Shown: piece after piece, positions 14,584 to 43,783 of the stretch
Numbering within the stretch: the stretch's first letter is position 1
Layout: each line of letters begins with the position of its first letter
Assembly (NCBI RefSeq): GCF_003555505.1
Contig: NZ_CP032152.1
Coordinates: forward strand, 558,001 to 622,000
Direction of reading: 5' to 3'
DNA length: 64,000 nt
Origin: Thermosynechococcus sichuanensis E542
Lineage (GTDB): Bacteria; Cyanobacteriota; Cyanobacteriia; Thermosynechococcales; Thermosynechococcaceae
The notes under the pieces: generated by a model
The model's database searches: none
Seen by the model: only the letters and a program-made list of their open reading frames with translations
What the model was told of the DNA's origin: nothing
Position numbers and translations under genes: made by a program

Positions 14584-15027
14584 CTAGGGGCGGGGCAAAT
14601 CAAAAAATAGGAGTTTTGTCAGTAAGCCAAGGGTAGCCACTAGAAATGCCACTAAGAATCCCCAAAGCCGCGCATCTGTGCCCGCTTGTCGCTTGGAAAT
14701 GTCCTGCAATGTGGACTCTACTGTATCAATCCGCTGTTCGAGCTTGGCCTCCACAGCATTAATTCGCTGTTCAAGTTTGGCCTCGACGGCATTAATTCGC
14801 TGTTCGAGCTTGGCCTCCACAGCATTGATCCGCTGTTCAAGTTTGGCCTCGACGGCATCAATTTTGTCCTCAAGCCTTTGGAATTTCTCGCTACTAGTGG
14901 CAATGTGAATATCCAGCTTTTTATCTATGGCTTGAATAGCAGCCTGCATTGTGCGCACATCGGCCTGCATTCCTTGGATAGCATCCAAGACTTGGCTCAA
15001 TTCAGAACGGGTAATGGGTTCAGTCAT
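14584..15027 (-). CDS. Tail-anchored coiled-coil protein with 11-residue repeats
   Basis: 147 residues from ATG 15027. Residues 1-50 are helical. Residues 55-105 hold four near-perfect tandem copies of an 11-residue unit, (K/R)I(D/N)AVEAKLEQ, which is a hendecad coiled coil. A single transmembrane helix near the C-terminus (WGFLVAFLVATLGLLTKLLF) leaves only a few residues outside. This is the plan of a membrane-tethered trimer- or tetramer-forming stalk. No function is assigned. It lies between the DUF4079 gene and tRNA-Arg. Confidence 0.7.
   Translation of the reverse strand: MTEPITRSELSQVLDAIQGMQADVRTMQAAIQAIDKKLDIHIATSSEKFQRLEDKIDAVEAKLEQRINAVEAKLEQRINAVEAKLEQRINAVEAKLEQRIDTVESTLQDISKRQAGTDARLWGFLVAFLVATLGLLTKLLFFDLPRP
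14732..14863 (-). repeat. Tandem 33-bp repeats arranged as a duplicated 66-bp unit
   Basis: Four 33-bp units at 14732-14764, 14765-14797, 14798-14830 and 14831-14863 encode the 11-residue repeats of the coiled-coil gene. Units 1 and 3 match each other more closely than units 2 and 4 (GTTCGAGCTTGGCCTCCACA against GTTCAAGTTTGGCCTCGACG), so the array reads A-B-A-B. A 66-bp block was evidently duplicated in tandem, recently enough that third-position differences are still shared. Confidence 0.9.
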
Positions 15028-32630: not shown

Positions 32631-33331
32631 CTAGCTTTCAAATACTGCTGCCAAGTGGCCACAATTGCTGGGGAGCCGTACCAAGGGGCATCGGGGCGAT
32701 CGCGCCAGCGGCTGCGAGGTGCGTGGAGCACATCTTCATAAACCAAATTTTCTGCCCCCTCGAGGTGGGCTGCTGCCACCGGTGTCACCCCATCGCCCCA
32801 ACAAGCACCCTCACCACAGGTGAGTTTATAGCTTTGATAGGTAAACCAATTGGCAAACGACCCACGGGGTGTGCCATAGACAGCCTTGCCCGCCAGACAC
32901 ACATAGCGAATATGCGGGTAATAGGCACCAGGGTACGTGGTGTTCACAAAATCGAGATTGCGGCGCGTCCAACGCTCCTGACTGCGATGCGGAGTCCCCA
33001 ACGTGATTAACGTGTGCACCCATTTATGACCCGCCCACACGTGGCCATCATAGGGTTGATCCCCTAGGTAAATGCGGCTAATCCAGCCCCCCGCTGAATG
33101 GCCAATGAGATGCACGGCGGATGCCCCTGTTTCATGCAGAACAGTTTGAATTGTGGTATGCAAGGCCTGTAAAATGGGCGCCACCGATCGCCCCCCCAAC
33201 GTGGGAAACCATGAACGTACCCTGAGGGGCACCACCTCCACCACAAATCCCAACTGCCGCAGATAATCCCGCAGTGGGTAGTAGTCAGGGGCAGCCGCTA
33301 AATATCCTGGTAAAAGAACGACAGGCAACAC
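32627..33331 (-). CDS. Alpha/beta-hydrolase, lipase/PGAP1-like
   Basis: 234 residues. The nucleophile elbow is IGHSAGGWISR, the acid is likely the Asp of ACWGDGVTPV, and the His is in YEDVLHAPR, giving a full Ser-Asp-His triad in the usual order. VVLLPGYLAAAPDYYPL is the oxyanion-side start. No signal peptide is visible. Substrate unknown; a lipid ester is plausible. The gap to the upstream MBL gene is 4 bp, so the two are likely co-transcribed. Confidence 0.8.
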   Translation of the reverse strand: MLPVVLLPGYLAAAPDYYPLRDYLRQLGFVVEVVPLRVRSWFPTLGGRSVAPILQALHTTIQTVLHETGASAVHLIGHSAGGWISRIYLGDQPYDGHVWAGHKWVHTLITLGTPHRSQERWTRRNLDFVNTTYPGAYYPHIRYVCLAGKAVYGTPRGSFANWFTYQSYKLTCGEGACWGDGVTPVAAAHLEGAENLVYEDVLHAPRSRWRDRPDAPWYGSPAIVATWQQYLKAS

Positions 33332-33335
33332 AGGG

Positions 33336-34217
33336 CTAACTTGCTTGAGGCGTTGCTGGGAAGTGTATCACATTTGGATAGACGGCAATCATTAGCCCCT
33401 CGCGAGCCAGCAGCGTCTGCGGAAATTGTGACCGTGCCAACTCACCAATGCGGTCGAGAAAGTCATCATCGTGGCTGGGGTCATGGTGAAATAAAATCAG
33501 TTGCTTGACTTGGGCGGCTTGGGCGAGCTTAACCGCCTCCTGCCATGTGGAATGCCCCCACCCCACCTTGCTCTGTTGCGGGTGATAGTACTCTTCATCG
33601 GTATAGGTGGCATCGTAGATCATGACATCAGCGCGATTGGCCAAAGCAAAGGCTCCCGGATGCAATCGATCCGGCAAATGCTCCGTGTCTGTAATATAGG
33701 CTACATGAATGCCCTGCCAACTGACGCGATAGCCTACCCCCCCACCCGGATGATTCAGGGCTTCATTACTCACCACCACACCGCCGCCTAGGTGTACTCG
33801 TTCCCCTGCCTCTAAGTCATAAAAACGCAAATCACCCCCCATAATCTGCAACGGAACCGGAAAGTTGGGGTGCAGCATTTGATCATTCAGGCGTCGTTCA
33901 ATGCCCTGACCATTTTTCCCCGGCACTGCATAGATATGGAATTGGTTCCCCGGGACAAAGGCGGGCTGAAAGAAAGGAAAACCCTGAATATGATCCCAGT
34001 GGGTATGGGTAAAGAATAAATGTGCCGTTACCGGCTGTTGACTCATTAAGTGCTCCCCCAGCACTCGCAAACCCGTACCGCCGTCAAAGATGATCCGTTG
34101 ACCATTGGCTTGAATTTCCACGCAGGGAGTGTTACCACCATAACGGACAGTGTGGGAACCGGGACAGGGAATACTGCCGCGCACGCCCCAAAACCGGATG
34201 GTAAGTGGGTTAAACAT
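33336..34217 (-). CDS. MBL-fold metallo-hydrolase
   Basis: 293 residues from ATG 34217; an upstream in-frame extension to 34283 is unlike the family. IRFWGVRGSIPCPG is the typical start of this MBL subgroup. The zinc site is FTHTHWDHIQG, with further ligands in the NHPGGGVGY and ITDTEHLPD segments and in LFHHDPSHDD. It resembles the RNase Z/phosphodiesterase-like branch. It precedes the lipase-like gene by 4 bp on the same strand. Confidence 0.82.
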   Translation of the reverse strand: MFNPLTIRFWGVRGSIPCPGSHTVRYGGNTPCVEIQANGQRIIFDGGTGLRVLGEHLMSQQPVTAHLFFTHTHWDHIQGFPFFQPAFVPGNQFHIYAVPGKNGQGIERRLNDQMLHPNFPVPLQIMGGDLRFYDLEAGERVHLGGGVVVSNEALNHPGGGVGYRVSWQGIHVAYITDTEHLPDRLHPGAFALANRADVMIYDATYTDEEYYHPQQSKVGWGHSTWQEAVKLAQAAQVKQLILFHHDPSHDDDFLDRIGELARSQFPQTLLAREGLMIAVYPNVIHFPATPQAS

Positions 34218-34517
34218 GGGCACATCGCAAATCTTGATCGTAGTGTGCCACAGAAAACACTCCTCCCCTGTGATATGGATCATCCTCCCCCTGTGACCCT
34301 AGGAGTTGATAGAGTGAAGGCTATGCACCCTCAGGAGGGATAAAAATTTTTTTCTAGAATTTGCGGGGCGAGTGCATATCTGCAAAAACGCCATTGGATA
34401 AATGAATGGAGGGTTGTGCTAGGAGGATGGATGAGGATGCCCAGTGAATAAAGCAGGCGGTCACGTTTCTCCGTACGGTTGTTCTTTACTTTAATGAATG
34501 TTTATTGAGAGCGATTG
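34218..34517. other. Divergent intergenic region before the sigma factor gene
   Basis: 300 bp between the MBL gene (leftwards) and the sigma-like gene (rightwards). Both promoters must be here. It contains several A/T runs and an AGGAGG box near 34420 followed by a six-codon frame, which may be chance. No hairpin terminator or RNA gene was recognised. Confidence 0.4.
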
Positions 34518-35648
34518 ATGAAACGCCAACCCTGCGATAAACTCATTAGTTTGCTGCGATTTGATGGTTCCAATCGCCCGCGCTGGTATTGCGATCGCCA
34601 ACTACAGGCCTACTTCACAGAAGCGGAGTACAACCTCGGGCAGCCAGAGCCGACGGCGGTCTTCCTCCTCCAACAATTACAGAGTCAGCCGAACCATCGT
34701 GATGCCCACTACTGGCGGCGGGGACTGTTTTGCTATCTCCAAGAAACTAGTTGGTCTGTAGCCATGACCCTGCGGGAGAAAGTTGGCGGGATGCATCAGG
34801 TCACCGACTGTTTTCAGCAGGCCTGCTATCTCACGAGTGATCCCCTCAAGTTATTGCGTAGATTTAAGCCCGAGCAGGGTACGCGGCTATCCACCTACGC
34901 TTATCGCCGCATCTATGACGGTGTGTATGCTGTGCTGGTGGGGGTTCGGCAATCGGATTGGGGCTTACTCAAGCACAGTGGTCCGCGTTCTCTCTCCTTA
35001 GCCTTGAGAAGCCAAGGATACAGGGAAGATGACATCAATGAAATCCAACAGCTTGTCCACCTTTGGAAAGAGGTGGTGGATCAGACCAAGGCTCCCCATC
35101 AGGAACTTCTGGCTCAGGTGGCTAAAACCTATCGTCAATGTCGTCCTGATCTCCCCCCTGTGACGGCTAGCGAAGTGGAAACCCTGCTCCGCACAGCGAT
35201 CGCTGCCCTGCGGGCCTATCACCAACCACAGGTGATGAATACTGCTGAGGAACGGTTTTGGAACACCCTAGAAGGAGGAAATACCCCTTGGGAAGCAACT
35301 CTGAAACAGGAAGAACAGGAAGCCCTGAAACGGGTATTTGAAATCCTGAAACATGCGGTTGAGGGCTTGGATGACGCCAGTCGTCAGGTGTTTTGTCTCT
35401 ACTATTGCGAGCAGGCTAGCCAACAAGAAATTGCCCAGCTATTGGGCTTTCAAAAACAATATCAAGTGTCTCGCGCCCTAGAGCGAATTCGTGGTCACTT
35501 GGCGAAAGCGGTACTCACCGCCCTTAACCAACCCGCACATCCCCAACGCCTTAAGGAGGTAACGGTGCTTATCAATCTGTGGTTGAAGGAGGGCTATAAA
35601 GTTTTAGCAATGTCTTGTCAGCGATGTGCTCGGGTGGGTATGGCATAA
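34518..35648 (+). CDS. Divergent sigma-70-family factor
   Basis: 376 residues from ATG 34518. Residues 116-131 (FKPEQGTRLSTYAYRR) match sigma region 2.3-2.4, normally F-P-RG-FSTYA-WWIR. Residues about 285-330 (LDDASRQVFCLYYCEQ, then QQEIAQLLGF and VSRALERIRGHL) are sigma region 4 with its helix-turn-helix. The N-terminal ~110 residues and the spacer between regions match nothing I know. The whole is longer than an ECF factor and lacks region 1.1. It starts a putative operon with DUF1822 and CHAT genes on the same strand. Confidence 0.75.
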   Translation: MKRQPCDKLISLLRFDGSNRPRWYCDRQLQAYFTEAEYNLGQPEPTAVFLLQQLQSQPNHRDAHYWRRGLFCYLQETSWSVAMTLREKVGGMHQVTDCFQQACYLTSDPLKLLRRFKPEQGTRLSTYAYRRIYDGVYAVLVGVRQSDWGLLKHSGPRSLSLALRSQGYREDDINEIQQLVHLWKEVVDQTKAPHQELLAQVAKTYRQCRPDLPPVTASEVETLLRTAIAALRAYHQPQVMNTAEERFWNTLEGGNTPWEATLKQEEQEALKRVFEILKHAVEGLDDASRQVFCLYYCEQASQQEIAQLLGFQKQYQVSRALERIRGHLAKAVLTALNQPAHPQRLKEVTVLINLWLKEGYKVLAMSCQRCARVGMA

Positions 35649-35729
35649 CACTGTCATGATGCGGGTACATTTTGACTGTTTTGTAAACGGTACGAACTTT
35701 TGGGAGTTGTTGTACTTAGGTAAGGAACT

Positions 35730-37109
35730 ATGACGCTATCACTTTCGTTTCTCGCAACCATAGATGCGCCACCGATGGCGCACACGGAACACGTTCACAT
35801 TGACTTAGCCGATTGTGGCGATCGCCAGTGGATTGAGCAGATCACAGCGGCTGCCCGCACTTACCGTCGTGGCAGTGTTCGGATGAATGCCATGGCCTAT
35901 GCAGCCGTGCGCTACTGGTTCGCAGAAATGGGCATCAATGCCGACCCCTTCCTCTCCACCGTCGAACTACCCATCTTTTGGGAGTTTGTCAACGGCACCC
36001 TCCTCAAGACCGCTATCGGTCAAGTGTTGATTGTGCCCGATATCACCATAGAGCTTGACGAGTGCCGCATTCCTCAGGAATGGTTACATATTGACGCTTG
36101 GAAACCCGATTACATCTTGGGGGTACAAGTCTTTGCCGAAGAAGCCCAGGTCAGACTCTGGGGCTATGCGCCAAGCAGCAGTGTGAATCGTTCTGCCATT
36201 GATACCTTGAGCCGCACCTACATCCTCGATCGCGAGGAGATGATCGAAGATGTTCCCCTCCTTGCTGCCTTGCCGGCATGCCATCACATCCCTGTGCCAT
36301 CACCTGCGGCAACTGCCATTTCCACAGCTACACTTCAGCAAATTGCCAGTGGCGAGATTCTTTTGCCCCGTTTGGTATTGCCCCTAGAGGACTGGCTGCC
36401 CATCATTGGGCAACCCCGCCATCGCCTTGATCTCTTTTTGGCCTGTCATCCGCAGCGGCTGAGTCTATGGCTTTATGCTAAGACCAAGGGCATGAGCAAC
36501 CTGTTGGGTCAAGTGTGGCAAGACGTGCAGGAACTGCTTGAGGAGGGCGCTATGATCAATCCCTACCTCAGTTGGAAGTTGGGCTGGACATCGCCAGAGT
36601 GGGCATTGCGCTCCAATGACACCTTAGAAGCCATGCAAGCTGAAGCTCAATTACGCCAAGCCTTAGAAACCGAAGATTGTCGCCAAGCGGTTGCCCTCCT
36701 CAAAGAGCTGATTGCCACCACTGCCGATGAAGGATTGCGCTGGATGGCGGCAGAATGCCTCCACGCTAAAGATGCCACTGCTCCAGAAGCAGGGGTATGG
36801 AAGACTCGTACCGTGGACTTGGGTCTTGCCCTCGGGGGACAGTCCCTGAGTTTGGTCATGGCTGTGTTACCGCGAGATGAGGTGTCTGCCAATATCCTTG
36901 TGCGCGTCAGTGCCCTCAAAGCGGGAGAAACTTTGCCCCCAGACTTGGTTTTGACGATTACTGAGGCCAATGGCAATACCTTTGCCCAAGTTACCAGTCG
37001 GCAGCAGGATCAAGCGGTGCAGTACAAGTTTTGGGGACAACTTGGCGAAACCTTTGGCATTACACTGGCCTATCGAGATGCTAGGATCACGGAAACTTTT
37101 GTTGTCTAA
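35730..37109 (+). CDS. DUF1822 family protein
   Basis: 459 residues from ATG 35730, after TAAGGAACT. DUF1822 features: RRGSVRMNAMAYAAVRYWFAEMG near residue 50, RIPQEWLHIDAWKPDYILGVQV near 115, and the two-part C-terminal region with LGLALGGQSLSLVMAVLP. It is soluble, with no signal peptide and no catalytic motif. DUF1822 is largely restricted to cyanobacteria and often occurs near CHAT or sigma genes. It lies 81 bp after the sigma gene and 26 bp before the CHAT gene. A role as substrate or regulator of the protease is inferred only. Confidence 0.82.
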   Translation: MTLSLSFLATIDAPPMAHTEHVHIDLADCGDRQWIEQITAAARTYRRGSVRMNAMAYAAVRYWFAEMGINADPFLSTVELPIFWEFVNGTLLKTAIGQVLIVPDITIELDECRIPQEWLHIDAWKPDYILGVQVFAEEAQVRLWGYAPSSSVNRSAIDTLSRTYILDREEMIEDVPLLAALPACHHIPVPSPAATAISTATLQQIASGEILLPRLVLPLEDWLPIIGQPRHRLDLFLACHPQRLSLWLYAKTKGMSNLLGQVWQDVQELLEEGAMINPYLSWKLGWTSPEWALRSNDTLEAMQAEAQLRQALETEDCRQAVALLKELIATTADEGLRWMAAECLHAKDATAPEAGVWKTRTVDLGLALGGQSLSLVMAVLPRDEVSANILVRVSALKAGETLPPDLVLTITEANGNTFAQVTSRQQDQAVQYKFWGQLGETFGITLAYRDARITETFVV

Positions 37110-37135
37110 CTCTGCTGTCCCTGTCTGCTGCCGCC

Positions 37136-39556
37136 ATGAAACACGTCTGCCTCGAAATCTATGGGGGCTGCCTTGAGCAGCATTCCCTCAGGGGTCGTCT
37201 ATTGCTGGGAACAGAAACCCAAGTGGATGCCTATGGGGTGTATCCTGTGGAGTTTCCAGCAATGCCTCACCTCCCTCGCCAGTATGAGCAGTGGCGCGAC
37301 GCCTATCACGGCTATGCGAAGAATACGCGTCTGGGGGCAAGCGGTAACCAAATTACAAACATTGGTACTCAGCAACCCAACCTCCTGAAAGAGGTGCAGC
37401 AAAACTACAAAACCCTAGTGACCGCCCTTGGCACGTGGTTGAACAGTACTCGCATCAATTTTCTCAATCAGGAACAGCTCAATGAGCAGCCTTCACCGTT
37501 CAGCGAGCAGACTTCATTTTTTGGCCTAGGCAACTTTATCTTGCCGCCGCCGATGAACGAGGTTCACCGCATTTTTGTGCAGACAGATTTTGTTGAACTT
37601 TGGCGCTATCCATGGCACGAGTGGACACCAATTCGCCAGCACAGCCATCTGGATGTGGTTTTTTCACCGATGGTGTATCAGTCCTTGAAGTCGCCGTCGG
37701 CACAGCATGAGCGGGTGCGGATTCTGGCAATTTTTGGCGCGAATGGCGACCTCGATCTGAAGGGGGATCTTGCGGCTCTCATGGCGTTGCCCGATGTGGA
37801 ACTCCACTGCCTGCGATCGCCCCAATTGAGTGAACTGTATTCCCTGTGGTGTCAGCCTTGGGACATTCTCTTTTTTGCTGGGCATAGTCAGGGTAATGGT
37901 ATTATTATCAACAATGCAGAGGAGCCATTACAGATTTACAGGCTTTATGAAACGCTGAAAACCGCCGTGGAGAAGGGGCTGAAACTGGCGATCTTTAATT
38001 CCTGCGACAGTATTCCCCTAGGGCAGTTTTTAATTCAGTTGGGCTTGCCCCACGCGATTGTCATGCGGGAAGCGGTTCCCAATATTGCCGCTGAGTTGTT
38101 TTTGAAGTACTTTTTACAGAACTTTCACGGGGGTGCAGATCTCTATGCCGCTGTAGCGCAAGCGCGATCGCAATTACGCGAACTGAGTCGCTGCGATGAT
38201 CATCTGCCGGGGATATCAGCGCTACCCTTAATTTGCCGCCATCCCCAAGCCCGCTGCCTCCACTGGCACCACCTACGGCGATCTGACGCCAGTCCTGTGA
38301 CTGTTTCTGTGGGCGATCGCCCCTCGTCAAACGCCTCTGAATTCCCCAACTTCCTCTACTGGTGTCGCTGGCAATTGGAACTAGCGCAACTGAGACCCCA
38401 AGCGCTGCAAGAGGATCCGGGGCGCTGGGTAACGGTCATGCCCAAGGGGGTGAATCACCAAACGCCGCAGCAAAACTACCAACACGCCCTTGCCAATCTT
38501 AGTCATTGGGCCTGTGGTGTCCAACAAACCACTGGTGGCTTTCCCCAGCAACCGGAGCTGGCCTTTTTCTTTCCTGCCCTTGGGGCGGAGGCTCGCCAAT
38601 GTCTGCCACGGGTTGCTAGTCGAGAACTCCTGCCCCACCTTGAATCCCTAGTGGTTGAGCAGCGGGAACTCCCCCGCATCCGTGCCGCTTTTTTGATTGC
38701 ACAGCAATATCCCAATGTCAGCCACCTTAGTACAGCGTTTCAAATTTTAGAGAACACTTTACGTCAGGCAACCAAGCCCCAACTGCGCGAAGCGCTATTA
38801 GCCGAGTGTCAACAATTTCTTAAGGAGCTAGATGCCGAGCTTGTCAGGAGCGTTTGGGACAGTACGACGGGGGAGCACCTACAGCAGTTTTTACAGCGGC
38901 TGCTCTACTATCCCCAACAGTCTAACCGCCTGAAACTGGCGATCGCTGCTGTTCTCATTACTGCAAGAGGGCGCTGGGCCGTTGAAGCCAGCAATGTTGC
39001 CCTAGAGATTTTTCGTAACTCCTCCTATCTTGAGGATGCGATCCTTGCCAGCCAGTGTTTACACCAAGCGGGGATGCGGCAGTGGGAGGTTGTTGGACGG
39101 CTAGAGCGCTATTTGGGCTTGGCCACGGTGCAGTCCCACCAGATTGCCCTTTCCGGTGCCCTTGGCATTGTCAGTCCCAATCATCCCCAAGCCATTGATA
39201 CCCTTGAGTTAATTATTGAGCAGCAGGCCTACGACTTAGAAACACTGATGGCGGCGGTGCGTACCCTTCACCGGATTGCCCCTGAGCATCCCGCTGTACT
39301 CGCGACTCTGCGATCGCTTTTAGCCAAGGCGCAGGAAACCCAAGATATTCTCGGCTTTTACTATGGCCTAGCGGCTCTCGATGAATTGCAGCAGCCCCTA
39401 ACCCCCTACATCTCAACTACAGTTATCCCGTGGGTTTGCCAGAAAATTGCTGTCTTCAAGGCGCAAGAAGAACCCTACCTGATGGCTCCCTATACCGTGC
39501 TGTGGTACTGTAGCCGCCATATTCCCTATCAAGAATTTGCAAATTTTTGGCAATAG
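37136..39556 (+). CDS. CHAT-domain (caspase-like) protease with helical-repeat C-terminus
   Basis: 806 residues from ATG 37136. The N-terminal ~190 residues are a conserved module of unknown role. The CHAT caspase-like fold spans about 190-390: His250 in FFAGHSQG and Cys290 in IFNSCDS form the catalytic dyad, with DLYAAVAQARSQL as the later helix. From about residue 460 to the end it is alpha-helical, with HEAT/Armadillo-like character (RIRAAFLIAQQYPNV, LETLMAAVRTLHRIA). No signal peptide. It closes the sigma-DUF1822-CHAT operon. Confidence 0.85.
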   Translation: MKHVCLEIYGGCLEQHSLRGRLLLGTETQVDAYGVYPVEFPAMPHLPRQYEQWRDAYHGYAKNTRLGASGNQITNIGTQQPNLLKEVQQNYKTLVTALGTWLNSTRINFLNQEQLNEQPSPFSEQTSFFGLGNFILPPPMNEVHRIFVQTDFVELWRYPWHEWTPIRQHSHLDVVFSPMVYQSLKSPSAQHERVRILAIFGANGDLDLKGDLAALMALPDVELHCLRSPQLSELYSLWCQPWDILFFAGHSQGNGIIINNAEEPLQIYRLYETLKTAVEKGLKLAIFNSCDSIPLGQFLIQLGLPHAIVMREAVPNIAAELFLKYFLQNFHGGADLYAAVAQARSQLRELSRCDDHLPGISALPLICRHPQARCLHWHHLRRSDASPVTVSVGDRPSSNASEFPNFLYWCRWQLELAQLRPQALQEDPGRWVTVMPKGVNHQTPQQNYQHALANLSHWACGVQQTTGGFPQQPELAFFFPALGAEARQCLPRVASRELLPHLESLVVEQRELPRIRAAFLIAQQYPNVSHLSTAFQILENTLRQATKPQLREALLAECQQFLKELDAELVRSVWDSTTGEHLQQFLQRLLYYPQQSNRLKLAIAAVLITARGRWAVEASNVALEIFRNSSYLEDAILASQCLHQAGMRQWEVVGRLERYLGLATVQSHQIALSGALGIVSPNHPQAIDTLELIIEQQAYDLETLMAAVRTLHRIAPEHPAVLATLRSLLAKAQETQDILGFYYGLAALDELQQPLTPYISTTVIPWVCQKIAVFKAQEEPYLMAPYTVLWYCSRHIPYQEFANFWQ

Positions 39557-39832
39557 TTAACTTCCCCTAGGGGGCGTGAAATCGAGCGCCTGCTGAGGAT
39601 CAACAGTAGCAACTAAAGAAAAAATGGGGTCGTCGCAATGACTGACCCCGCCTGCCGATTCCTCAGAGAGGAGAACACTAAGACTTAGCCTAAGCCAGAT
39701 GAGAAAAAATGTCAACAAGTCCGCAGAAAAAGTTTGCCCAAGATGCCGAGCACTCTCTTGCCCTCTTTCCCTCGGATTCCCAGCCGTGGGCTGTCGCTCT
39801 AACCTCTGAGAACAGTTGCCCTTAGGGGAGTG
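39557..39832. other. Intergenic region with short hairpins, nothing assigned
   Basis: About 280 bp after the CHAT gene. It holds a GGGGTC...GACCCC hairpin near 39625-39650 and CCTC-AGA-GAGG near 39665, neither followed by a T-run. A small RNA is possible, but no known family was recognised. No reading frame of note. Confidence 0.3.
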
Positions 39833-40200
39833 CTAAAGGTTGAAGATTTGCTCAGCCGTCAACACCAATTGCGGGAGTAGCTTTGATTGAATTAGGGATT
39901 GTCCTTGTAATTCGGTGAGCTGATAAGATCGACCGCCTCAAAAGCAAAGCACCACCTTTTGTTCTTCAGGGTCAATGAGAATGCCCATTTCAGCATACTC
40001 GCGACGTTTTGTGTGATAGTCGCGATCGCGATCTATATTGCCCAGACTAACCACTTCTATCACTAAAAGCGGTGGGCGTTCGACAATCGCCGAAAGCGGA
40101 TTTTGTTTGCGCAGAGCGTTCCAGTCTTCGCAGTGCAATCTGCCGCATCATAATCTAGGAACTCCGCAAAGGTAACCTTTGTAACGGGAGTTTGAGTCAT
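39833..40200 (-). pseudogene. Uma2-family (DUF820) endonuclease pseudogene
   Basis: Start ATG 40200 encodes MTQTPVTKVTFAEFLDYD, the normal Uma2 beginning, but the frame is then lost. A second frame (to 39938) has ERPPLLVIEVVSLGNIDRDRDYHTKRREYAEMG, the core Uma2 strand-helix, immediately followed by ILIDPEEQKVV, so the EYW segment is missing. A third frame gives ELQGQSLIQSKLLPQLVLT and ends LTAEQIFNL, stop at 39833. About 80 residues before the core, with catalytic residues, are gone. This is a decayed relic of a family abundant in cyanobacteria, lying next to an IS200/605 remnant. Confidence 0.8.
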
Positions 40201-40279
40201 GACCCGGTGCGCGGCAAGCCCCGCCGTTCAGGGCGGGGAAGGATAGCGCGGACTTTGTTGCCGTTCTTGTCTTTGGGTT

Positions 40280-40497
40280 TCAGTGTGGAGTCTGCTGCTG
40301 CTCGATGTACTGCCACAGCTTGAAGCAAAGTAGGACAGTAACCACAGCACGCCTTTCCAGTAACGCTTCTGGATGTCGGGCCGCTCCTTGCGGATCAGTT
40401 GCGCCTTGAAGTCGGCACAGACCTTGGCGAAGATCGCGCCCAACCGGTTGATGGCGTCACCATCGAATCAAAGATCAAGTGGACGTGCATCTTGAAA
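40280..40497 (-). pseudogene. TnpA (Y1 HUH transposase) remnant, frameshifted
   Basis: Read leftwards, the relic starts with MHVHLIFDS, including the HUH His pair, then changes frame to RLGAIFAKVCADFKAQLIRK and KRYWKGVLWLLSYFASSC, then changes frame again to WQYIEQQQTPH and a stop at 40280. The last piece holds the catalytic-Tyr-type YIEQQ helix. At least two frameshifts and a missing N-terminus make it non-functional. Confidence 0.8.
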
Positions 40498-40506
40498 AAG
40501 AGTATA

Positions 40507-40689
40507 ATTAAGATCAACATCCTTTCTCGCGGGATGCAAAAACTGCGAGACGAAGGGCGGGACACGCTGAACGCTTTCAGCGGGACGGCGCAAGCCGTCA
40601 GCCCGGATGGCCTGTGGATCGAACCGCACTGGCGGTCGGAAGCAGGAACCCACCGAAGCGAATCAGGGGCGGCTCAATGCCGTGTCTGA
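40507..40689 (+). pseudogene. TnpB C-terminal fragment
   Basis: A plus-strand frame with INILSRGMQKLRDEG followed by AVSPDGLWIEPHW and EAGTHRSESG to a stop at 40687-40689 is the C-terminal tail of an IS605 OrfB/TnpB protein. The RuvC-like catalytic core is absent. It is directly followed by the terminal hairpin at 40703-40722. Confidence 0.7.
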
Positions 40690-40814
40690 GCGCCGTAGGA
40701 ATCCCTGTCCTTTAGGGCAGGGAGGATGTCAATGAATCTCGCAAGTTCAAACGCAATTTTGAATGCCTAACTCCAGCCTAGCCTACCGGCCTTGAGTCAA
40801 AGCTGAAATTCAGG

Positions 40815-42104
40815 CTAGGAGAGCAATTTCAGTTGCTGCATCACAGGTTCGGGCGATCGCGGCATCTCTGGCATGTCCTGACTCTCTTCTTCAAAATGGC
40901 CCGCAAGGGTTTGGAGTGCCGCTAGCAGATCCTGCCGCAGGGGTTCAAGGTCAGGGTGATGATCCAGATACAGTTGCAGGGCATGGCTGGGGTCAAGGCA
41001 CTGTTCGAGGGCAACGTCTGGCAGGCGGGCAATGGGCTGGCTATTCACCAGTTGGGGCAAGAAGCTGACACTGTGGGCATGTTCAAGCGCCTTTTGCAGT
41101 TCATGGAGGTTGATCAGGGGAATTTGATCGGGGCGCAGTTGATACATGACCCGCACCACAGCCCCAGTGATGTCCGCGCTGGCGATCGCCCCCAAGAGGG
41201 CAGCTTGCGGATCCAGTTCCACCTCGGTTAAGTCCACACGAATGGTGCGGAAGGGGCGGGTGGGCAGGGGACAAAACTGAAATTCCGTTTTTCCTTTGGC
41301 GAGGTTCACCAAGACATAGCCCTTTTCTTCCCCCTCTTCGCCAAAATCCACCCGCTCAATGCTGCCGGGATAGACCACGGGCGGATCGTGACATAGGACT
41401 TGGTGGCGATGGACATGGCCAAGGGCAACGTAGTCAAAGCAGGGGCGTGCCAAAAAACTCAGGGGAATTGTAAAGCCTTTGCCGGCACTCAAATAGCGTT
41501 CAGAGCCGTACTGGGCGGTGTCCACCATGGCATGGGCAAGTAAGACGGTAGGCAAGGCCGGATCGAGTTGGCGAATTTCTCCCTCAAGGGCAAGGCGCAG
41601 CCGCTCTAAGAGCAGTTGGTGCACATCCGCAAGGGAAAGGCCACTGGTTTCCGGCCGGGTGAGGAGTGTAGATCGCGTTAACCAGGGGAGGGTAATGACT
41701 TGAATACTGCCGCGGCGAGTTTCAATGCGATGGGTAGCTAAGCGATCGCCCACAATAAAGCCGGGCACCCCAAGGGTGCGATAGAGACTGAGGCTGGCGC
41801 CCCCCTGTCCTTGGGCATGCTGATCGTGGTTGCCCACCAGTAAGACCGTGGGAATGCGGGCATCTGCTAAGCGGCGAAATTGACTGGCAAAGGCTTCATG
41901 GACGAGGGGAGGTGGCGTCGCATCGGGAAAGGCATCACCACCAAAGAGCACCAGATCAACCGGTTCACTGAGGGCACGGTCAATACAGGTGGCCAAAGCA
42001 GCAATAAAATCCTCAAGGCGCGTATTCAAGCCCGTGGCAGGGTTAATGTGGCCATGACTGAGGCCACTGCCAAGGTGAATATCAGACAGATGGAGAATTT
42101 TCAT
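40815..42104 (-). CDS. sbcD: SbcD-like nuclease (metallophosphoesterase)
   Basis: 429 residues. Mre11/SbcD metal-binding motifs are in order: LHLSDIHLG (residue 4 on), LFGGDAFPD, LLVGNHDQHA, LLAHAMVD and ALGHVHRHQ. The C-terminal ~150 residues are the capping/SbcC-binding part. As the nuclease subunit of SbcCD it would process DNA hairpins and ends. SbcC is not adjacent. It lies 5 bp after pgm, so the two are co-transcribed. Confidence 0.9.
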   Translation of the reverse strand: MKILHLSDIHLGSGLSHGHINPATGLNTRLEDFIAALATCIDRALSEPVDLVLFGGDAFPDATPPPLVHEAFASQFRRLADARIPTVLLVGNHDQHAQGQGGASLSLYRTLGVPGFIVGDRLATHRIETRRGSIQVITLPWLTRSTLLTRPETSGLSLADVHQLLLERLRLALEGEIRQLDPALPTVLLAHAMVDTAQYGSERYLSAGKGFTIPLSFLARPCFDYVALGHVHRHQVLCHDPPVVYPGSIERVDFGEEGEEKGYVLVNLAKGKTEFQFCPLPTRPFRTIRVDLTEVELDPQAALLGAIASADITGAVVRVMYQLRPDQIPLINLHELQKALEHAHSVSFLPQLVNSQPIARLPDVALEQCLDPSHALQLYLDHHPDLEPLRQDLLAALQTLAGHFEEESQDMPEMPRSPEPVMQQLKLLS

Positions 42105-42109
42105 AGCAA

Positions 42110-43783
<1,674 letters not shown>

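Follow-up and report, generated by a model that had tools for sequence, protein, structure and literature searches.

Operon architecture and genomic surroundings

The 64-kb stretch of DNA analysed here (the window) carries three open reading frames on the forward strand that encode a divergent sigma factor, a DUF1822 protein, and a CHAT caspase-like protease, separated by intergenic gaps of 81 bp (sigma/DUF1822) and 26 bp (DUF1822/CHAT). Reading frames, strand, and gaps were re-derived from the sequence and all agree with the original prediction. The following features are referred to below:

34370..34517, forward strand: conserved leader upstream of the operon (blocks of near-identity among four congeners, 5' of the sigma start)
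34518..35648, forward strand: divergent sigma-70 family factor, 376 aa (TIGR02937 match over the cut-off)
35730..37109, forward strand: DUF1822 protein, 459 aa (full-length PF08852 match)
36546..36623, forward strand: DUF1822 interdomain linker, residues 273-298 (low pLDDT)
36609..36611, forward strand: Arg294 codon, proposed P1 position (Ala-Leu-Arg, followed by Ser-Asn after the proposed cut; from conservation and models)
37136..39556, forward strand: CHAT caspase-like protease, 806 aa (PF12770 match)
37883..37885, forward strand: codon of the predicted catalytic His250 (present in 60/60 relatives)
38003..38005, forward strand: codon of the predicted catalytic Cys290 (present in 60/60 relatives)

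Judging from its conservation, the leader likely holds the promoter and regulatory sequence of the operon. It also contains a tiny conserved ORF (34431-34451), found at the same place upstream of the sigma gene in L033, L032, and L099, which reads Met-x-Met-Pro-Ser-Glu-stop in three congeners, follows an AGGAGG-like stretch, and could possibly encode a leader peptide. An Rfam search of positions 33000-42200 gave no match. The statement that no CRISPR array is present also holds, as a direct-repeat search of the 64-kb window found no CRISPR-like repeat array and returned a single closely spaced direct repeat, at 14712-14876, with a 33-bp period. This repeat lies inside a coding region, where a 66-nt unit occurs four times with overlap; it is probably a coiled-coil repeat. 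Positions 40200-40732 are one of many copies of a repeated element in this genome. The element, found as two blocks (query parts 631-820 and 943-1163), is probably an internally deleted insertion element and partly explains why the gap between CHAT and SbcD is longer than in two congeners. The host genome is a single contig of 2.65 Mb and encodes one DUF1822 protein.

The three encoded proteins

The sigma gene starts at ATG 34518, with an alternative TTG at 34515. Its product matches TIGR02937 over residues 68-331 (E 9.9e-18, 64.3 bits vs. a cut-off of 42.9), and the Pfam models for region 4 (residues 281-310, E 6.8e-5) and region 2 (residues 110-132, E 0.018) were found below their cut-offs, for which reason the protein was rightly termed a divergent sigma-70 factor. 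Region 2 extends over approximately residues 68-140 and region 4 over approximately residues 260-331, and a profile built from relatives of this protein matches the solved SigF/FliA structures. Upstream of other DUF1822-CHAT pairs, a short, divergent ECF-like gene is often found (212-260 aa vs. ~380 aa for the long sigma type). These short proteins weakly match SigK and RpoE structures; we rejected their assignment to the same family as the long sigma, since a profile comparison gave no convincing match.

The DUF1822 protein is a full-length member of its family (PF08852, E 6.8e-81, 272.6 bits vs. a curated cut-off of 25). Its AlphaFold model (mean pLDDT 87.9) consists of an N-terminal alpha/beta domain (residues 20-265), a flexible linker, a helical HEAT-like insert (residues 299-347), and a C-terminal Ig-like beta-sandwich (residues 356-458), with Ig-like fold matches (Z 5-6.6) limited to residues ~355-459. 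The helical insert is present in only some family members, and the model of a relative that lacks it (mean pLDDT 89.7) concurs in showing two domains with a low-confidence linker between them. The published label of DUF1822 as a TPR protein was therefore not adopted. We also did not retain DUF1822 as a homologue of Csx30, as the family profile found no PDB sequence at E values up to 5 in a database that should include the 8EEY Csx30 chain, and the fold matches were mainly Ig-like; this absence is not proof, and the lack of a Csx30 chain among the fold matches listed does not exclude one.

DUF1822 was detected in 244 of the 386 sampled genomes of the phylum, in many of them as a weak match; a search of named genomes with the window protein alone as query found no relatives. 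In another part of the phylum (family f31), many genomes of 1.5-2.5 Mb have one weak match each (E 1e-17 to 1e-4), and a distant DUF1822 relative may exist in these organisms. Short proteins comprising only the C-terminal domain of DUF1822 are encoded in L065 (7994-8635), L051 (4917-5573), and L170 (5396-6067). In L065 and L170 they directly precede the CHAT gene, which suggests that this domain may be the part of DUF1822 that meets the protease.

The CHAT protein matches PF12770 over residues 69-377 (E 5.3e-27, 95.4 bits vs. a curated cut-off of 24). A conserved N-terminal region and the CHAT domain extend to residue ~380 and are followed by a helical-repeat C-terminal region with an NCC-H-like end (E 1e-3, below the cut-off); a HEAT_2 match in the CHAT protein of a congener is just below the cut-off. 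The constant part of ~380 aa, including the conserved N-terminal region, was aligned in sets of 12 and of 60 sequences, and the previously predicted His250/Cys290 dyad is present in all 60 relatives of the larger alignment. The C-termini vary among relatives and include CHASE2, periplasmic-binding, NACHT, and helical-repeat regions. A DUF928 gene is located after CHAT in L055 (12172-12942), L169 (6912-7685), and L173 (7988-8713, below the cut-off), making DUF928 a possible fourth component of DUF1822-CHAT loci.

Conservation of gene order across cyanobacteria

The gene-order survey covered 64 genomes, amounting to almost one for each genus, with pairing defined as location on the same strand and at most 1.5 kb downstream. 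DUF1822 lies directly downstream of 54 of the 57 full-length sigma relatives, and the CHAT type found here is the next gene in 20 of 60 sigma-DUF1822 pairs. Nine sigma matches were first scored as unpaired; on reading, two of them turned out to belong to complete trios, and three were true orphans. In a second set, assembled independently by CHAT alone and comprising 80 named loci from cyanobacteria, DUF1822 is located immediately upstream in 63, with a recognised sigma gene above DUF1822 in 33 of these, and no DUF1822 was found just upstream in the remaining 17. Thus, in the comparison that the original prediction had proposed as a check, the sigma-DUF1822-CHAT order recurs in many genera, with sigma and DUF1822 forming a nearly obligate pair. 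This pair also occurs in a genome (G048) with zero CHAT-family genes and no adjacent Peptidase_C14 gene, which has two C14 genes elsewhere. In one Nostoc-like group (L139, L112), a short sigma-like gene is located apart from the DUF1822-CHAT pair; a 941-aa gene intervenes in L139, and its equivalent in L141 (910 aa) encodes a TPR-CHAT protein. Tree correlations were 0.61 for sigma-DUF1822, 0.82 for DUF1822-CHAT, and 0.80 for sigma-CHAT. We did not use them as a sign of contact between sigma and DUF1822, because the partial correlation of this pair given CHAT was approximately -0.1, so that they show shared history only.

The position after DUF1822 can also be filled by a different caspase-fold family. 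In at least 4 of the 53 loci without this CHAT type, the DUF1822 match is followed at a distance of 97-397 bp by a Peptidase_C14 gene, where 0.04 loci would be expected by chance (Poisson P ~1e-7), and two further loci have a Peptidase_C14 gene within ~3 kb. The C14 caspases in this slot are intact ORFs, some of them fused to nSTAND and WD40 parts, and contain DxC motifs (DxCHS in most). The strongest sign that proteolysis is important to the module is that CHAT and C14 occupy the same slot.

A conserved arginine in the DUF1822 linker

The linker is the one long internal low-confidence stretch of DUF1822 and is found at the same place in the second model. Block means of pLDDT across residues 271-300 are 64, 50, and 64, with values below 50 at residues 287-293. 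Right after this minimum, the alignment column of Arg294 contains 84 R and 3 K among 90 DUF1822 sequences and, in an enlarged set of 168, 154 R and 4 K (158 basic residues in total). It is among the dozen most conserved columns, in surroundings that are variable and predicted to be flexible. Before the arginine (P2), Phe, Ala, Met, or Leu predominates, and after it (P1') Ser, Asn, or Gly. Orthocaspases are described in PMC6426788 as cutting after positively charged residues. We read Arg294-Ser295 as a candidate protease cleavage site on the basis of conservation and structure models. The arginine is equally conserved where no CHAT gene is adjacent (35 of 35 DUF1822 proteins following a long sigma), and another role for this residue, or proteases acting in trans, is therefore possible. 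Two C14-linked DUF1822 proteins (L159, L160) have no clear arginine motif.

Loss and decay within the genus

Eleven genomes of the genus were compared. Three of them (G000, G241, G083) have an intact module at the same site, and a fourth (G390) has an intact but divergent copy elsewhere in the genome. In G389, the sigma gene is intact, DUF1822 is truncated, and CHAT is broken; a gene judged by eye to be transposase-like lies between the latter two. G386 combines an in-frame deletion that joins sigma to DUF1822 with a CHAT gene interrupted (L098, 8000-8450) by an insertion resembling an IS200/IS605-type tnpB end, the family being judged by eye. The resulting fusion of sigma with the C-terminus of DUF1822 was not used as a fusion argument, because it arose by in-frame deletion at a locus that is decaying. 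The module has been lost in 5 of the 11 congeners, where only a 3' remnant of CHAT persists beside the same flanking genes. The flanking-gene tree places the intact G083 in a firm group with two of the deleted genomes, and the other deleted genomes elsewhere on a weakly supported backbone; this scatter indicates that the module disappeared on more than one occasion, or else was regained. Between intact congener copies, dN/dS is ~0.39 for sigma, ~0.15 for DUF1822, and ~0.21 for CHAT, and 0.03-0.12 for the flanking genes. Purifying selection acts on all three genes, and the module is thus constrained, yet dispensable.

Comparison with known systems

Genes for EACC2 caspases with an ECF sigma factor and DUF1822 were already described in a contextual analysis that proposed caspase autoactivation (Kaur et al. 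2021, PMC8195603), and the gene cluster itself is therefore not a discovery. These systems share with the present locus a constant N-terminal part plus caspase, a variable C-terminus, a sigma factor, and DUF1822. They differ in that the paper labels DUF1822 as TPR, whereas our models give alpha/beta and Ig-like domains with a conserved linker arginine; in that DUF1822 is here proposed as the substrate instead of autoactivation of the caspase; and in that the sigma factor of the window is of the long (~380 aa) and not of the short ECF-like type (212-260 aa). What is new here is the candidate cut site and the exchange of protease types at the slot after DUF1822.

Precedent for a CHAT protease that relieves sigma-factor inhibition comes from the type III-E CRISPR module Csx29-Csx30-CASP-sigma (PMC10028731), which likewise combines a CHAT protease, a two-domain middle protein with a linker, and a sigma factor in one locus. 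In contrast to that module, no CRISPR array is found within the 64-kb window and no sequence relation of DUF1822 to PDB chains was found; the cut in Csx30 falls between residues 427 and 429, where the C-terminal domain forms a loop, and not at an interdomain-linker arginine (PMC10028731). The parallel to Csx30 drawn in the original prediction thus stands for the layout of the locus, as an analogy only, and does not extend to a sequence match between DUF1822 and PDB chains.

HetF is a CHAT-type protease, and RseA is a membrane anti-sigma factor. In Anabaena, HetF and PatU3 are another example of a negative regulator being removed by a cyanobacterial protease, but neither the substrate PatU3 nor the partner HetZ is a DUF1822 protein or a sigma factor (reviewed in PMC12288457). 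Cleavage of RseA by DegS, RseP, and ClpXP, which releases RpoE (as cited in PMC10028731), similarly represents regulated proteolysis of an anti-sigma factor, but by other protease classes without a caspase fold.

Proposed mechanism and alternatives

We favour a switch composed of a sensor-protease, an anti-sigma factor, and a sigma factor, although our confidence in the mechanism as a whole stays slightly below even. Sigma and DUF1822, encoded in one operon, would form a complex that keeps sigma off RNA polymerase. The CHAT protein would combine the constant protease part with a C-terminal sensor that varies among relatives and is formed here by helical repeats with the NCC-H-like motif at their end. 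Upon a signal, CHAT would cut the DUF1822 linker after Arg294, as conservation and models suggest, parting the N-terminal domain from the Ig-like domain, and cut DUF1822 would free sigma for transcription of its target genes. The idea of proteolysis, already part of the original prediction, gains from the C14 caspases in the CHAT slot and, independently, from the conserved linker arginine, and is weakened by the roughly two-thirds of pairs that have no adjacent CHAT and keep the arginine. Also speaking against the switch are the G048 pair, the two C14-linked DUF1822 proteins with no clear arginine motif, and the partial tree correlation of sigma with DUF1822. Intact sigma beside truncated DUF1822 in G389 would be awkward for it if free sigma is harmful.

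The variable sensor C-termini (CHASE2, periplasmic-binding, NACHT) would suit a caspase that activates itself, as proposed for the EACC2 systems, and acts on other proteins, with DUF1822 as an uncut adaptor and sigma as a parallel transcriptional output; the 17 of 80 CHAT loci without DUF1822 just upstream also fit this scheme. We nevertheless consider it unlikely, as it leaves unexplained both the nearly invariant basic residue in a flexible linker and the joint occurrence of sigma and DUF1822 without a caspase. The latter, together with the conservation of the arginine in pairs lacking CHAT, is what would be expected if DUF1822 were a positive partner or scaffold of sigma, aiding its stability or promoter binding, with a binding or structural role for the arginine and the protease, where present, serving as an off-switch. 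The location of the arginine in the low-confidence linker of both models and the use of two caspase-fold families after DUF1822 argue against such a partner, which we judge no more probable than self-activation.

Sporadic loss and decay within the genus would suit a conflict (anti-phage or suicide) operon, in which sigma and DUF1822 only control expression of a protease that cuts many proteins and kills or halts the cell. These caspases associate with STAND and WD40 modules, and in L036 the C14-nSTAND protein is recognised by the PADLOC caspase model. However, no PADLOC model matched any of the three proteins encoded by the operon, and many sigma-DUF1822 pairs have no protease to control, leaving a conflict role the most doubtful of these explanations. 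The proteolytic switch remains our preferred reading of the locus.

Extended to the phylum, this reading would make DUF1822 a large, non-CRISPR family of caspase-switched anti-sigma factors with a common cyanobacterial layout, in which sensor-linked CHAT and C14 proteases cut at one conserved arginine and release dedicated sigma factors, a generalization that we put forward tentatively and do not regard as probable. If true, cells would gain many parallel inputs from proteolysis to transcription via DUF1822. Few substrates have been described for the caspase homologues of cyanobacteria. If DUF1822 is such a substrate, mutation of a single arginine would test signalling by bacterial caspase-like proteases, and the Csx29-Csx30-sigma device of CRISPR systems would be one case of a wider, non-CRISPR pattern.
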